From: an uncultured Bryobacteraceae bacterium
GTDB lineage: Bacteria > Acidobacteriota > Terriglobia > Bryobacterales > Bryobacteraceae
Assembly: GCA_937924525.1 (NCBI GenBank)
Contig: CALDSU010000015.1
Coordinates: 116,550-180,549, forward strand
Length of the DNA: 64,000 nucleotides
Direction: 5' to 3'
Made by a program: the position numbers and the translations under genes. Numbering within the stretch: position 1 is the stretch's first letter; every line of letters starts with the position of its first letter. Shown here piece by piece: positions 55,469 through 64,000 of the stretch. Under the pieces are notes generated by a model. That model was not told the origin of the DNA. It worked only from the letters and a program-made list of their open reading frames with translations, and ran no database searches.

Positions 55469-57313
55469 ATGGCATTTTGTCGTGAGATGCTGGCCGCGGC
55501 CTTGGGCCTGGCGGCGGTTTGCTGTTCTCCTAATCCCATGGCGGCTCCTCCCAAGGATATTCACTCTTACGCGAACCCGGCGGTGGCGCGGGTGACGCAC
55601 CTCGATCTGGACTGCGAACTGGACTTCACACGGCGCGTCCTTACCGGCGCCGCCACGCTGACGGTGGAGCGCGCCGGGGAGGGGCCGCTGATACTGGACA
55701 CGCGGGCGCTCGAGATCCGCGCGGCCGAAACTTCCGCGGACGGACGCGCCTATCAGCCGGCCCGGTTCGAGCTGGGCGCGGCGGATCCCATTCTTGGCGC
55801 GCCGCTGACGATTGAACTCCCGCCCGGTGCGACCCGGGTGCGCGTGACGTACGCCACTTCGCCCGCAGCGACCGCCCTGCAATGGCTGGATCCCGCGCAG
55901 ACCGCCGGCGGGAAACGGCCCTTCCTGTTCACGCAATCGCAGGCAATTCACGCGCGCAGTTGGATCCCGCTCCAGGACTCGCCCGGCGTGCGGATTTCTT
56001 ACACGGCGCGGGTCCACACGCCCCCGGACCTGGTTCCGGTCATGAGCGCGCGGAAGGAGCCGGACAAGTCGGCCGGTTACAAGTTCTCCATGCCGGGCAG
56101 GATTCCGACCTATCTCATCGCGCTGGCGGCGGGCGACACCGAGTTCCGCGCCGTGGGTCCCCGCACGGGCGTCTGGGCCGAGCGGCCGGTGATCGACGCG
56201 GCGGCGCGCGAGTTCGAGGACATGGAGGCCATGCTGGCAGCCGCCGAGCGCCTGTACGGGCCCTATCGCTGGCACCGGTACGACGTGCTGGTGCTGCCGC
56301 CCAGCTTTCCCTTTGGCGGTATGGAGAACCCCATGGTGACGTTCGCGACGCCGACGGTGCTGGCGGGCGACAAGAGCCTGGTCTCGCTGATTGCGCATGA
56401 ACTGGCGCACTCCTGGTCCGGCAACCTGGTGACGAACGCCACCTGGAGCGACTTCTGGCTGAATGAGGGGTTCACCACCTACGTGGAGCGGCGCATTCTC
56501 GAGGAAGTCTATGGCCCGGAGCGGGCACGCATGGAAGCGGTGCTGGGCAAGCGGTCCCTCCTGCGCGAAATGGCCGAGCTGCCCGAGAAGGACCAGGTGC
56601 TGCACATCGACTTGGCGGGTCGCGACCCGGACGACGCGGTGACCGAGGTCCCGTACGAGAAGGGCGCCCTGCTGCTGGCGACGCTCGAAAACCGATTCGG
56701 CCGCGCGCGCTTCGACCGTTTTCTGGCCGAGTACTTCGCCAGGTTCGCGTTCCAAAGCATCACCACGGAGACGTTCGTCGCCCATCTGCGCGCCACGCTG
56801 TTCCGCGAAGCGCCGGCAGCGGCGGCGGAGTTTCCCCTGGACGAATGGCTGTACCGGCCCGGCGTGCCGGCGTCCGCCTACGAGCCGCAGTCCGAGACGC
56901 TGGCGCGCGTGGAAACGGAGGCCCGAAACTGGGCCGCTGGCCGGCCGCCCGAAACGGAAGCGACGGCCCGCTGGACCACGCAGGAGTGGCTGCACTTCCT
57001 GCAATCGCTCCCCGCGAAGCTGACGCCCGCCCAGATGAAACAGCTTGACGAGGCCTATCGCTTCACGCAAACCGGCAACAGCGAAATCCTTTGCGAGTGG
57101 CTCCGCATGTCCATCCGCTATGGCTACCGCGAGGCGGACGCCCGGGTGGAGCAGTTCCTGCGGTCCCAGGGCAGACGCAAGTACGTGAAACCGATCTACG
57201 AGGAGCTCGCCAAGACGCCGGCCGGCAAGGAGCGCGCGCGCCGCATCTACCGGCAGGCGCGGCCCACGTATCACCCCATCACCGTCGCCGCCGTCGACCG
57301 GCTGCTGGCCTGA
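55469..57313 (+). CDS. M1-family zinc aminopeptidase, leukotriene-A4-hydrolase-like
   Basis: A 614-residue exported peptidase. After a hydrophobic leader (LAAALGLAAVCCSP) comes the M1 N-terminal beta domain, the substrate-anchoring PFGGMENP motif, the zinc motif HELAHSWSGN at about residue 311, and the third ligand in NEGFTTY 18 residues later (HExxH-x18-E). A C-terminal helical domain (about 480-610) matches that of LTA4 hydrolases and cold-active aminopeptidases. The two Cys at the leader end could make it a lipoprotein, but the lipobox is imperfect. It is divergent from the cyclase gene. Role: removal of N-terminal residues from peptides in the periplasm or outside. Confidence 0.92.
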   Translation: MAFCREMLAAALGLAAVCCSPNPMAAPPKDIHSYANPAVARVTHLDLDCELDFTRRVLTGAATLTVERAGEGPLILDTRALEIRAAETSADGRAYQPARFELGAADPILGAPLTIELPPGATRVRVTYATSPAATALQWLDPAQTAGGKRPFLFTQSQAIHARSWIPLQDSPGVRISYTARVHTPPDLVPVMSARKEPDKSAGYKFSMPGRIPTYLIALAAGDTEFRAVGPRTGVWAERPVIDAAAREFEDMEAMLAAAERLYGPYRWHRYDVLVLPPSFPFGGMENPMVTFATPTVLAGDKSLVSLIAHELAHSWSGNLVTNATWSDFWLNEGFTTYVERRILEEVYGPERARMEAVLGKRSLLREMAELPEKDQVLHIDLAGRDPDDAVTEVPYEKGALLLATLENRFGRARFDRFLAEYFARFAFQSITTETFVAHLRATLFREAPAAAAEFPLDEWLYRPGVPASAYEPQSETLARVETEARNWAAGRPPETEATARWTTQEWLHFLQSLPAKLTPAQMKQLDEAYRFTQTGNSEILCEWLRMSIRYGYREADARVEQFLRSQGRRKYVKPIYEELAKTPAGKERARRIYRQARPTYHPITVAAVDRLLA

Positions 57314-59088: not shown

Positions 59089-59511
59089 TCAGACCGTCGT
59101 TTGGTAGACGGCCGCCAACCGGAGACTCCGCGCGACGCGACGGAGAGCCCGATCTCCAAGCAGGTCAGCGACTTTGGCCAATAAAGCAGGAACGCCTTCC
59201 GTCTTGACGAAGACCTCGGCCGGCCGGCCGGCCGGCATCACTTCGAGTTCGGACCGGACCACGGCGGTAGCCGGTTTGTACTCCTTCATCCGGGCGTGGG
59301 CTAGCACCTTCAGCCCGGCGCCGTCCGACTCCATATGCAGGTCGCTCAGCACCAGGTCGTAACGGCCTTCGTCCAATTTTTCAATGGCTTCCGCGGCAGT
59401 GGCGGCTACCTCTACCCAGTAGCCGCCCGCTCGTAAAATCGTCTGGAGGGTCAGGCGGGAGGTCAGATCGTGGTCGACCAGCAAGACCCGGGCCAGCGCA
59501 AGCGAGGGCAA
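59089..59511 (-). CDS. Single-domain response-regulator receiver protein
   Basis: A CheY-like receiver of about 140 residues without an output domain. The acidic pair is in LLVDHDLTSR, the phosphoryl-accepting Asp in LVLSDLHME, and the conserved Lys in EVFVKTEG. The conserved Thr/Ser position appears as VVRSE. No ATG fits: TTG at 59511 starts the annotated frame, while CTG at 59529 (in frame, six codons upstream) has AGGAG seven nt before it and could be the real start. A promoter candidate with TTGAAA and TACAGT lies about 60-85 nt upstream. No kinase gene is adjacent. Confidence 0.85.
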   Translation of the reverse strand: MPSLALARVLLVDHDLTSRLTLQTILRAGGYWVEVAATAAEAIEKLDEGRYDLVLSDLHMESDGAGLKVLAHARMKEYKPATAVVRSELEVMPAGRPAEVFVKTEGVPALLAKVADLLGDRALRRVARSLRLAAVYQTTV

Positions 59512-62356: not shown

Positions 62357-63253
62357 ATGTATAAAGCCTTTTTCGGCCTCAAACAGAACCCGTTCAACCT
62401 GAGCCCGGACCCCGCCTTTCTCTACCGGAGTTTTCAGCACGAAGAGGCGCTGGCCAATCTCATCTATGGCGTGCACAGCCGCAAGGGCTTTATCGTTCTT
62501 ACCGGAGAGGTCGGCACGGGAAAAACCACCCTGCTCGAGTGCCTGCGCGATTTTCTGGTTTCCCAGCGCATCGAGTTTGCTTACGTATTCAACTCGCGGC
62601 TGACCGTCGAGCAGTTCTTTGACATGATCGCCTACGATCTGAACCTGAACTGCCGCCGCGAAAGCAAGACGGAAGTCCTGTTCGCCCTGAACGAACTGCT
62701 GATCTCGCGGGCGAACGCCGGCCTGACCACGGCTCTGCTGGTGGACGAAGCTCAAAACCTGGACTGGAATGTGCTCGAGGAGATTCGCCTGCTCGGCAAT
62801 CTGGAAACCCGGGTCGGCAAACTACTGCAGATCGTGTTGGCCGGCCAGCCTGAGCTGGACCGCAAGCTGGACGCCCCAGACTTCCGCCAGCTCAAACAGC
62901 GGGTCGCCTTGCGGTGCACGCTGAATCCTTTTCAGGAAGCGGATACGGTGGAATACATCCGATCGCGCCTTGAAAAGGCGGGTTTGGCAGAGCAAACCAT
63001 CTTCCCTCCGGAAATCCTGGCGGAGATCCACTACCGCGCGCAGGGCGTGCCCCGCGTGATCAACGCCATCTGTGACAACTGCTTGCTGACCGCGTTCGCG
63101 GCGGAAAGCAAGACGGTGACCATGGAGTTCCTCGAAGAAGTCACCCAGGACCTGCGTCTGGAATGGCCGGGACGGCGTCCCTACCGCGTTCGTCCCGAGT
63201 CGAGCGAGACGCCGTTCCGCAGTGAGCCGCAGTTCAGCCGCGGGTTGAAGTAG
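62357..63253 (+). CDS. GspA/ExeA-like AAA ATPase
   Basis: A 298-residue ATPase similar to ExeA/GspA and to the exosortase-locus ATPases, usually involved in assembling secretion or cell-surface systems. It begins MYKAFFGLKQNPFNLSPDPA, with Walker A LTGEVGTGKTTLLE (about residue 50), Walker B ALLVDEAQNL (about 130), and sensor regions typical of the AAA_22 fold. There is no membrane helix or peptidoglycan-binding domain at the C-terminus, unlike full ExeA. The sole recognisable neighbour after it is the repeat peptide gene at 63667, on the same strand but 413 bp away. Confidence 0.88.
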   Translation: MYKAFFGLKQNPFNLSPDPAFLYRSFQHEEALANLIYGVHSRKGFIVLTGEVGTGKTTLLECLRDFLVSQRIEFAYVFNSRLTVEQFFDMIAYDLNLNCRRESKTEVLFALNELLISRANAGLTTALLVDEAQNLDWNVLEEIRLLGNLETRVGKLLQIVLAGQPELDRKLDAPDFRQLKQRVALRCTLNPFQEADTVEYIRSRLEKAGLAEQTIFPPEILAEIHYRAQGVPRVINAICDNCLLTAFAAESKTVTMEFLEEVTQDLRLEWPGRRPYRVRPESSETPFRSEPQFSRGLK

Positions 63254-63666
63254 ATCCTCTCCCCATCGTCGAACCCAATTTGAGGCGCCGGAAACGCGCA
63301 TCTTTTGCGCACACGGGAGGGCTTTTAGGGGGTTCGTTTCCTGTCCATTGGGGGATGTGGCCGGGAGAGCGGGTGCGGGGAGGGCTGGAGCCTCGACGCA
63401 GGCGGCACGCTAAGCGAATTCCCCTACGACACTTCACTTAGGTCTTGACTTCCGCTTCGGTAATACTTAAGTTCTAAGAGAGTTGGATAGTTCCGGTACG
63501 CAGGCAGAAGACTGGCTAAGTGATTCGGCTAGGGGTGTTGCAGCCTTCCGACCTAGTCTTCTAGAGTAGTTTTCCTTATCGAAGTACTGGATGTCCCCCG
63601 CTGTACTGGACGGCGGTACTAGACTATAATGCCCCTGAAGTTCCAATCCGGTAGAGGAGATCCCCA
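63254..63666. other. Promoter-rich intergenic region upstream of the repeat peptide
   Basis: 413 bp of lower GC than its surroundings without a plausible gene. It contains a consensus -10 TATAAT (63625-63630); copies of GTACTGG at 63584-63590 and 63603-63609 plus GTACTAG at 63616-63622, which look like operator half-sites; and an inverted repeat AGAAGACT (63506-63513)/AGTCTTCT (63555-63562) enclosing about 40 nt. TTGACT occurs at 63445-63450. The region could carry a structured leader or regulator binding sites. Confidence 0.55.
63625..63630 (+). promoter_or_regulatory. Candidate -10 of the repeat peptide gene
   Basis: Perfect TATAAT, predicted start near 63637, leaving about 30 nt before the ATG at 63667 that includes GAGGAG. 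The -35 position (TGTACT at 17 nt) is poor, hinting at an activator, perhaps binding the GTACTGG copies. Confidence 0.55.
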
Positions 63667-64000
63667 ATGACGCGAGTCATCGACAACAAGACAGTTTGCT
63701 TTACTCTCTTTGCCCTGTTCGCCCTGGCCATGGTTGTGAATACCCTTGCCGGTGGCAGCTTGCCGTTGTTCGGCAGCACTGCCCTCCTCATGCACAACCA
63801 ATCTTTCCAATACGCCAGCGTGTCTCCGGTCCGCGAGGCAGCGCCGATTTTCAGTTTCTCGGATGGCCCGCTGTTCCCGCCGGATCCCTGGGACAAGCGG
63901 TCGGTGGCGGTAGCGGATGGCCCGCTGTTCCCGCCGGATCCCTGGGACAAGCGGTCGGTGGCGGTAGCGGATGGCCCGCTGTTCCCGCCGGATCCCTGGG
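63667..64000 (+). CDS. Small exported tandem-repeat protein, peptide-precursor-like (runs off right edge)
   Basis: The frame from the ATG at 63667, with GAGGAG seven nt upstream, encodes MTRVIDNKTVCFTLFALFAL followed by AMVVNTLAGG, a membrane or signal helix. A spacer of about 35 residues (ending REAAPIFSFS) leads into identical 18-residue units, DGPLFPPDPWDKRSVAVA, beginning at residue 66. Two full units and part of a third are present and the frame is still open at the edge, so the true length is unknown. The units are rich in Pro, with one Trp and one Lys-Arg pair each. I recognise no annotated domain. It could be a multi-copy peptide precursor, a wall or surface spacer protein, or a lineage-specific secreted repeat protein. 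No processing gene is visible in the window. Confidence 0.7.
   Translation, partial: MTRVIDNKTVCFTLFALFALAMVVNTLAGGSLPLFGSTALLMHNQSFQYASVSPVREAAPIFSFSDGPLFPPDPWDKRSVAVADGPLFPPDPWDKRSVAVADGPLFPPDPW
63862..64000 (+). repeat. Perfect 54-bp tandem repeat inside the peptide gene
   Basis: Units at 63862-63915 and 63916-63969 are identical base for base, and 63970-64000 matches the first 31 bases of a third copy. The 54-bp period is a whole number of codons. Identity without silent differences points to recent expansion or constant homogenisation. The number of further copies lies outside the window. Confidence 0.97.

Follow-up and report, generated by a model that had tools for sequence, protein, structure and literature searches.

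A tandem-repeat gene upstream of a predicted seven-helix membrane protein in Bryobacteraceae as a possible multi-copy peptide precursor

The yeast alpha-factor precursor is read by the receptor Ste2. Bacterial peptide quorum sensing, of which AgrC, ComD and PlnB are examples, uses single-copy precursors and polytopic receptors fused to kinases, mostly in Gram-positive bacteria. The passages of PMC7329392 that deal with fungal Kex2-processed repeat proteins describe an export signal followed by tandem, near-identical units that are highly diverse between lineages, and those of PMC11549390 that deal with insect apidaecin-type pre-pro-polyproteins describe many short proline-rich peptide copies in each exported precursor. 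The locus described here comes from an uncultured Bryobacteraceae bacterium whose genome is 5.5 Mb in 21 contigs; the stretch that was analysed (the window, 64,000 nucleotides, contig C15:116550-180549) ends inside a gene in which a predicted export segment precedes identical 18-residue units. We propose, with a probability of roughly 40%, that such tandem units form a multi-copy precursor of a short proline-rich peptide that is sensed by an adjacent predicted seven-helix membrane protein. This ligand and receptor reading is put forward because the unit is kept identical within a gene, is mostly lineage-specific, lies at the end of the protein and covaries with the adjacent seven-helix protein.

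The repeat gene and its slot

The open reading frame (ORF) at 63667..64000 on the plus strand (111 codons) is the 5′ part of the tandem-repeat gene; its translation is MTRVIDNKTVCFTLFALFALAMVVNTLAGG..., then 2.6 copies of DGPLFPPDPWDKRSVAVA, with no stop before the window end. From the sequence, a hydrophobic segment predicted to act in export or anchoring (residues 9-28, 63691..63750) is followed by a linker (63751..63861), and Tandem Repeats Finder and the unit junctions then place unit 1, DGPLFPPDPWDKRSVAVA, at 63862..63915 and unit 2, whose DNA is identical to that of unit 1, at 63916..63969, all on the plus strand. Unit 3 (63970..64000, plus strand) is interrupted by the contig end and would continue on contig C8, outside the window. 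Tandem Repeats Finder gave this array a period of 54, 2.6 copies, 100% matches and a score of 282; the only other arrays above the threshold of 50 in the 64 kb scored 58 and 51, and our tandem-ORF detector was positive in none of 62 control tiles of the window. The perfect 18-residue repeat behind a signal or transmembrane segment, as described in the original prediction, is thus present. A sigma-70-type promoter or a terminator was looked for at 63200-63700 and none was found. C15 stops at 180549, which is window position 64000, so the array was broken by the assembly and not by the choice of window.

Contig C8 breaks off (at 598206) in this repeat as well. Read on the minus strand, it gives an incomplete unit, then five complete ones and a final unit, DGPLFPPDPWDKRA, ending in ...WDKRA, before a stop (6.4 units and the stop, L008:8860-9207); beyond these repeats lies a seven-helix gene (L008:7973-8695, minus strand, 241-residue product). 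We infer that the C15 and C8 ends belong to one gene from two observations: relatives show the order ATPase, repeat gene, membrane protein, whose first member is on C15 and whose last is on C8, and P0002, a complete relative at 89% identity, carries two units and likewise ends in ...DKRA. At the unit junctions C15 has GTAGCG, GTAGCG and C8 has GTGGCC, GTGGCC, GTGGCC, GTAGCG, GTGGCC, GTGGCC, so that two consecutive GTAGCG junctions occur on C15 and not on C8, and the two ends overlap by 13 bases at most. Given these differing junctions and this overlap, the gene would comprise nine units or more if both ends are parts of it. Within the limits of the assembly, the frame does not close at once and the repeats are not fixed-copy parts of a known structural protein, the two outcomes that the original prediction had named as speaking against it.

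Among 237 genomes of the same family, taken to be Bryobacteraceae, 46 matched the window's repeat protein at E<=0.01, and a profile of the seven-helix protein found this protein in 116 of the 237, at 124 places, for 123 of which upstream DNA was in hand (G241 is the place without a locus). At 81 places the detector found a same-strand tandem-repeat ORF upstream, and one- or two-unit versions that it had missed were assigned by eye at nine more. Altogether, a repeat gene or a one-unit version lies upstream of the seven-helix gene at 89 of the 124 places. At 12 places the contig ends within 450 bases upstream with no repeat detected (one of these, G102, matches the end of the seven-helix model only and is possibly cut inside that gene); at ten, all in genus g26, a receiver-domain protein is encoded directly upstream instead of the repeat gene; and at 12, including G070, whose repeat lies 1.36 kb upstream and is not among the 80 repeats, of 81, used for the unit counts, neither is found upstream. 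Downstream of the seven-helix gene, the detector found a tandem repeat in none of 104 stretches.

The records with a seven-helix protein are those of Bryobacteraceae, Bryobacterales, Candidatus Solibacter and other Acidobacteriota, among them the cultured Paludibaculum fermentans, in which about eight ISPLPPPDPWGDGLS units precede the gene. In a sample of the phylum the protein was found in 3 of 396 genomes (E<=1e-5), all of the window's own family and its own genome included. When the ORFs from 31 loci were clustered together with those from the final 14 kb of the window, the two leading companions were an AAA ATPase (20 genomes) and a membrane protein of about 235 residues (19 genomes), followed by an oxidoreductase and an OmpA-like lipoprotein (11 genomes each). 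None of ten repeat proteins has a match in Pfam, and among the matches listed for searches of the open-licence PMC literature on Acidobacteria tandem-repeat or peptide systems, multi-copy precursors and the motif there was no description of the family. Even without peptide release, the gene family is marked by its recurrent slot, its hypervariable repeat and the strong constraint on its protein, and it has no Pfam match.

Contigs often break in or beside the repeat gene (L086, L088, L089, L092-L095, L126, L127, L129, L142 and L183), further contigs terminate inside a repeat array, and runs of N interrupt the arrays of L046, L091, L108 and L122 in the middle. The repeat gene is easily lost from assemblies because they break within it, as in this window.

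Units, their constraint and the seven-helix partner

Where the N-terminus was in hand, a hydrophobic 15-residue window stands ahead of the repeats in 59 of 63 proteins, for which export is predicted, and 73 of 80 proteins have five residues or fewer after the repeats. The AlphaFold model of P0002 has one long N-terminal helix (8-27), one four-residue helix and unstructured units, with a mean pLDDT (predicted local distance difference test score) of 61.5. By eye, the signal peptides of P0007-P0009 look ordinary and cleavable. Versions with a single unit exist (P0004, P0005, G091, G184, G203). At L100, upstream of the G119 seven-helix gene, there are two small consecutive genes, both with hydrophobic N-termini, the first with two PPDPW units and the second with none.

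The 80 units comprise 73 distinct sequences of 10-26 residues with 26% proline; PP is found in 72 of them and Trp in 45. Different lineages place in one and the same slot units such as HGPTFPPDPWDGKVA, AISPLPPPDPWGDGL, KGGPIPPPDDNGTFAL, AHIAPPPDIWEL and SGPGPSVDGF. The unit junction, counted at those 62 of 80 places where the search pattern applied, has a hydrophobic residue at -2 in 56 of 62 and Ala at -1 in 39 of 62 (a small residue at -1 in 48 of 62), followed by x-(Gly/Ser)-Pro, and in many proteins a similar junction also precedes the first unit. A dibasic pair occurs in two of the 80 units, the Lys-Arg of the window's unit and one other, so dibasic processing of the Kex2 type was set aside as a family rule; on the units compared, Lys-Arg is a feature of the window's own lineage. 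The multi-copy propeptide of the original prediction accordingly stands in its layout, with variable copy number, units identical at the protein level and a short tail; its proposed cleavage at Lys-Arg is not supported.

Adjacent units in one gene differ at 0.36 per silent site (pS) and at 0.020 per replacement site (pN), or 0.014 in a second calculation; the first included G070 and treated one period of 34 as 17, and the second used that period undivided. Silent divergence exceeds replacement divergence in 79 of 81 arrays, one array showing the opposite, and the two remaining reading frames give ratios of 5.8 and 7.6. The amino-acid identity of adjacent units has a median of 0.99 and a minimum of 0.92 over the 81 arrays. 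Since the detector is biased towards well-conserved repeats and picks the best frame out of three, the low pN is partly ascertained, yet the detector admits repeats of about 70% identity and the lowest identity found was 92%. Recent slippage as the origin of the repeats was rejected, because a silent divergence of 0.36 per site means that the copies are old and not fresh duplicates. To judge from this pattern of substitution, selection keeps the amino-acid sequence of the unit copies.

Units diverge more in step with the seven-helix protein than with the ATPase. Across 35 loci, unit distance correlates at 0.73 with seven-helix distance and at 0.60 with ATPase distance, and the partial correlations are 0.54 for the seven-helix protein (reached in 0 of 999 permutations) and 0.11 for the ATPase (33 of 999). 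The rank-based values are 0.53 and 0.24, respectively, both exceeding all 499 permutations. A stronger covariation of the unit with the ligand-facing (outer) half of the seven-helix protein than with its inner half was also looked for and was not seen.

The seven-helix protein is predicted to have seven helices, in an arrangement that may resemble that of G-protein-coupled receptors (GPCRs), and a positive-inside count over 71 sequences predicts an N-terminus outside and a C-terminus inside. No convincing known family was found for it in Pfam, NCBIfam or the PDB sequences, and its profile gave no hit to the latter up to E 1. Membership of the GPCR superfamily by sequence was set aside on this absence of a PDB hit and on a lone 7tm_2 match (1 of 71 members, E 0.004), which we take as chance. 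Matches to MASE3 (PF17159) at E<=0.1 occur in 19 of 71 members and are weak (best 2e-4), and the MASE3 profile found nothing in the window's own genome at E<=0.001. In a structural comparison no listed family stood out as a close relative, which does not exclude unlisted families.

Under the proposed reading, the repeat protein would be exported through Sec and cleaved where units meet. The likeliest site is the common (Leu/Val/Ile)-Ala junction that precedes x-(Gly/Ser)-Pro, and cleavage there would release peptides of about 10-26 residues. A released peptide would bind the seven-helix protein from the periplasmic side, and the signal would pass inward, perhaps via kinase-like receiver proteins; in one genus the genes for such proteins immediately precede the seven-helix gene.

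Neighbouring genes and alternative explanations

The AAA ATPase gene (62357..63253, plus strand, 298 aa, AAA_22) is the first gene of the conserved neighbourhood. Its best NCBIfam model is TIGR03015, at 282.4 bits. For 59 of the 81 repeat places the upstream DNA reached 1.5 kb or more, the other 22 being too short to judge; at 34 of these 59 the repeat gene is preceded by an ATPase, as are 8 of 12 further repeat genes. In genus g69, genes other than the ATPase stand upstream; by eye, genes for an RNase HII-like protein and a small membrane protein replace it at L116, L120 and L123. The proteins encoded beside seven-helix paralogues in genus g26 (L104, L105, L119, L133, L135-L139, L145) match Response_reg in 10 of 10, HisKA in 8 of 10 (over the cut-off in 3) and PAS in 6 of 10, with no HATPase listed. 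A gene named by eye as an OmpA-like lipoprotein lies near the repeat or the seven-helix gene in 11 genomes, often on the opposite strand (for example L038:5363-6160 and L043:2289-3119). Upstream of a seven-helix paralogue in G181, a CxxxCxxC protein (L097:2462-3745) resembles a radical-SAM enzyme by eye. In the window, an M1-family peptidase (55469-57313) and a lone response regulator (59089-59511) are encoded upstream, neither with a shown link to the repeat gene. A scan of 12 own neighbours (the ATPase, the seven-helix protein and ten others) found no radical-SAM or other maturase, no transporter and no exosortase.

The main alternative, possible though doubtful, is that the repeat protein stays uncut and anchored in the inner membrane, where its many identical motifs would be docking sites that keep several seven-helix proteins, or some other partner in the envelope, together. 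Its own hydrophobic segment may remain uncleaved, the repeat region has no predicted structure, and one motif that is repeated and kept identical by selection suits multivalent binding; the covariation with the seven-helix protein is likewise compatible with binding without cutting, and a gene of the M1 aminopeptidase type is the sole peptidase among the 12 neighbours scanned. The cleavable-looking signal peptides of P0007-P0009 would, however, free the repeats, and the single-unit versions named above give no multivalency. The ATPase evolves more slowly (mean distance 0.26 versus 0.67 for the seven-helix protein), which makes the covariation supportive and not decisive. The spacing of some other structure, or an envelope protein of low information without a specific partner, would account for a proline-rich region that is predicted to be unstructured and varies freely in copy number. 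We consider this surface spacer, which the original prediction had thought equally plausible, rather improbable, since in most of the proteins next to nothing follows the repeats to be spaced, each unit is under strong constraint at the protein level and the gene occupies a recurrent slot.

Short tandem units with 26% proline, a small polytopic neighbour and lineage-specific change would also be expected of an apidaecin-like multi-copy antimicrobial precursor, with the seven-helix protein as its membrane immunity protein. This is unlikely: the net charge of the 80 units is negative in 73, neutral in five and positive in two, whereas the proline-rich antimicrobials covered in the relevant passages of PMC11678341 are Arg-rich, and on this cationic, Arg-rich feature the proline-rich antimicrobial was set aside. 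There is also no dedicated exporter among the neighbours scanned, and the receiver or kinase-like genes beside ten paralogues suggest sensing. Tandem cores are found in multi-core RiPPs (ribosomally synthesized and post-translationally modified peptides), and the original prediction had considered that a radical-SAM enzyme might form a cyclophane on a W-D-K motif. W-D-K is present in the window's unit, alone among the 80 listed, and in the relative P0003, and the radical-SAM-like protein at L097 precedes one seven-helix gene. Even so, we consider a RiPP substrate quite improbable, as the 12 own neighbours scanned contain no maturase, none was seen by eye in the neighbour clusters common to genomes, not all of which were scanned, Trp is missing from 35 of the 80 units and a conserved aromatic-x-x core triplet was not found. 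If the units are indeed released as peptides and sensed by the seven-helix protein, this would be peptide communication in a diderm family, with a layout familiar from fungi and insects and with adjacent genes for ligand and receptor, and it would offer dozens of naturally occurring ligands for testing in pairs.

Comparison with known systems

The window ATPase aligns over nearly the whole of the XrtA/PEP-CTERM-associated ATPase model TIGR03015, but it stays below the curated cut-off of 324.5 bits, and no exosortase was found among the neighbours scanned. Like MASE3 and other membrane-associated sensor domains, the seven-helix protein is predicted to be polytopic, and some of its members give the weak MASE3 matches noted above, the best E being only 2e-4; it stands alone, however, instead of forming the N-terminal part of a kinase or cyclase. 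As in AgrC, ComD and PlnB quorum sensing, genes for an exported peptide and a polytopic membrane receptor, roles that we propose here, would lie side by side, and kinase-like receiver genes stand beside ten paralogues of one genus; unlike those systems, the precursor would be multi-copy and the seven-helix protein is not fused to a kinase.

The apidaecin polyproteins have in common with the repeat proteins a short proline-rich peptide repeated in an exported precursor (export being predicted here), and they differ in that the units described here are mostly acidic and not Arg-rich, are bacterial and have a membrane protein as partner. The layout is also that of the Kex2-repeat proteins and the alpha-factor precursor, with a predicted export signal, tandem near-identical units, diversity between lineages and, likely, a seven-helix partner; here, however, the system is bacterial, homology is not shown and dibasic sites occur in only 2 of 80 units. 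In contrast to alpha-factor and Ste2, the two genes are adjacent, and the neighbour is without a sequence match to solved receptors. By analogy, the pair may, though this is doubtful, be a Bryobacteraceae counterpart of the yeast mating factor and Ste2, with a hypervariable prepropeptide, a cognate stand-alone receptor and a peptide "dialect" specific to each lineage.
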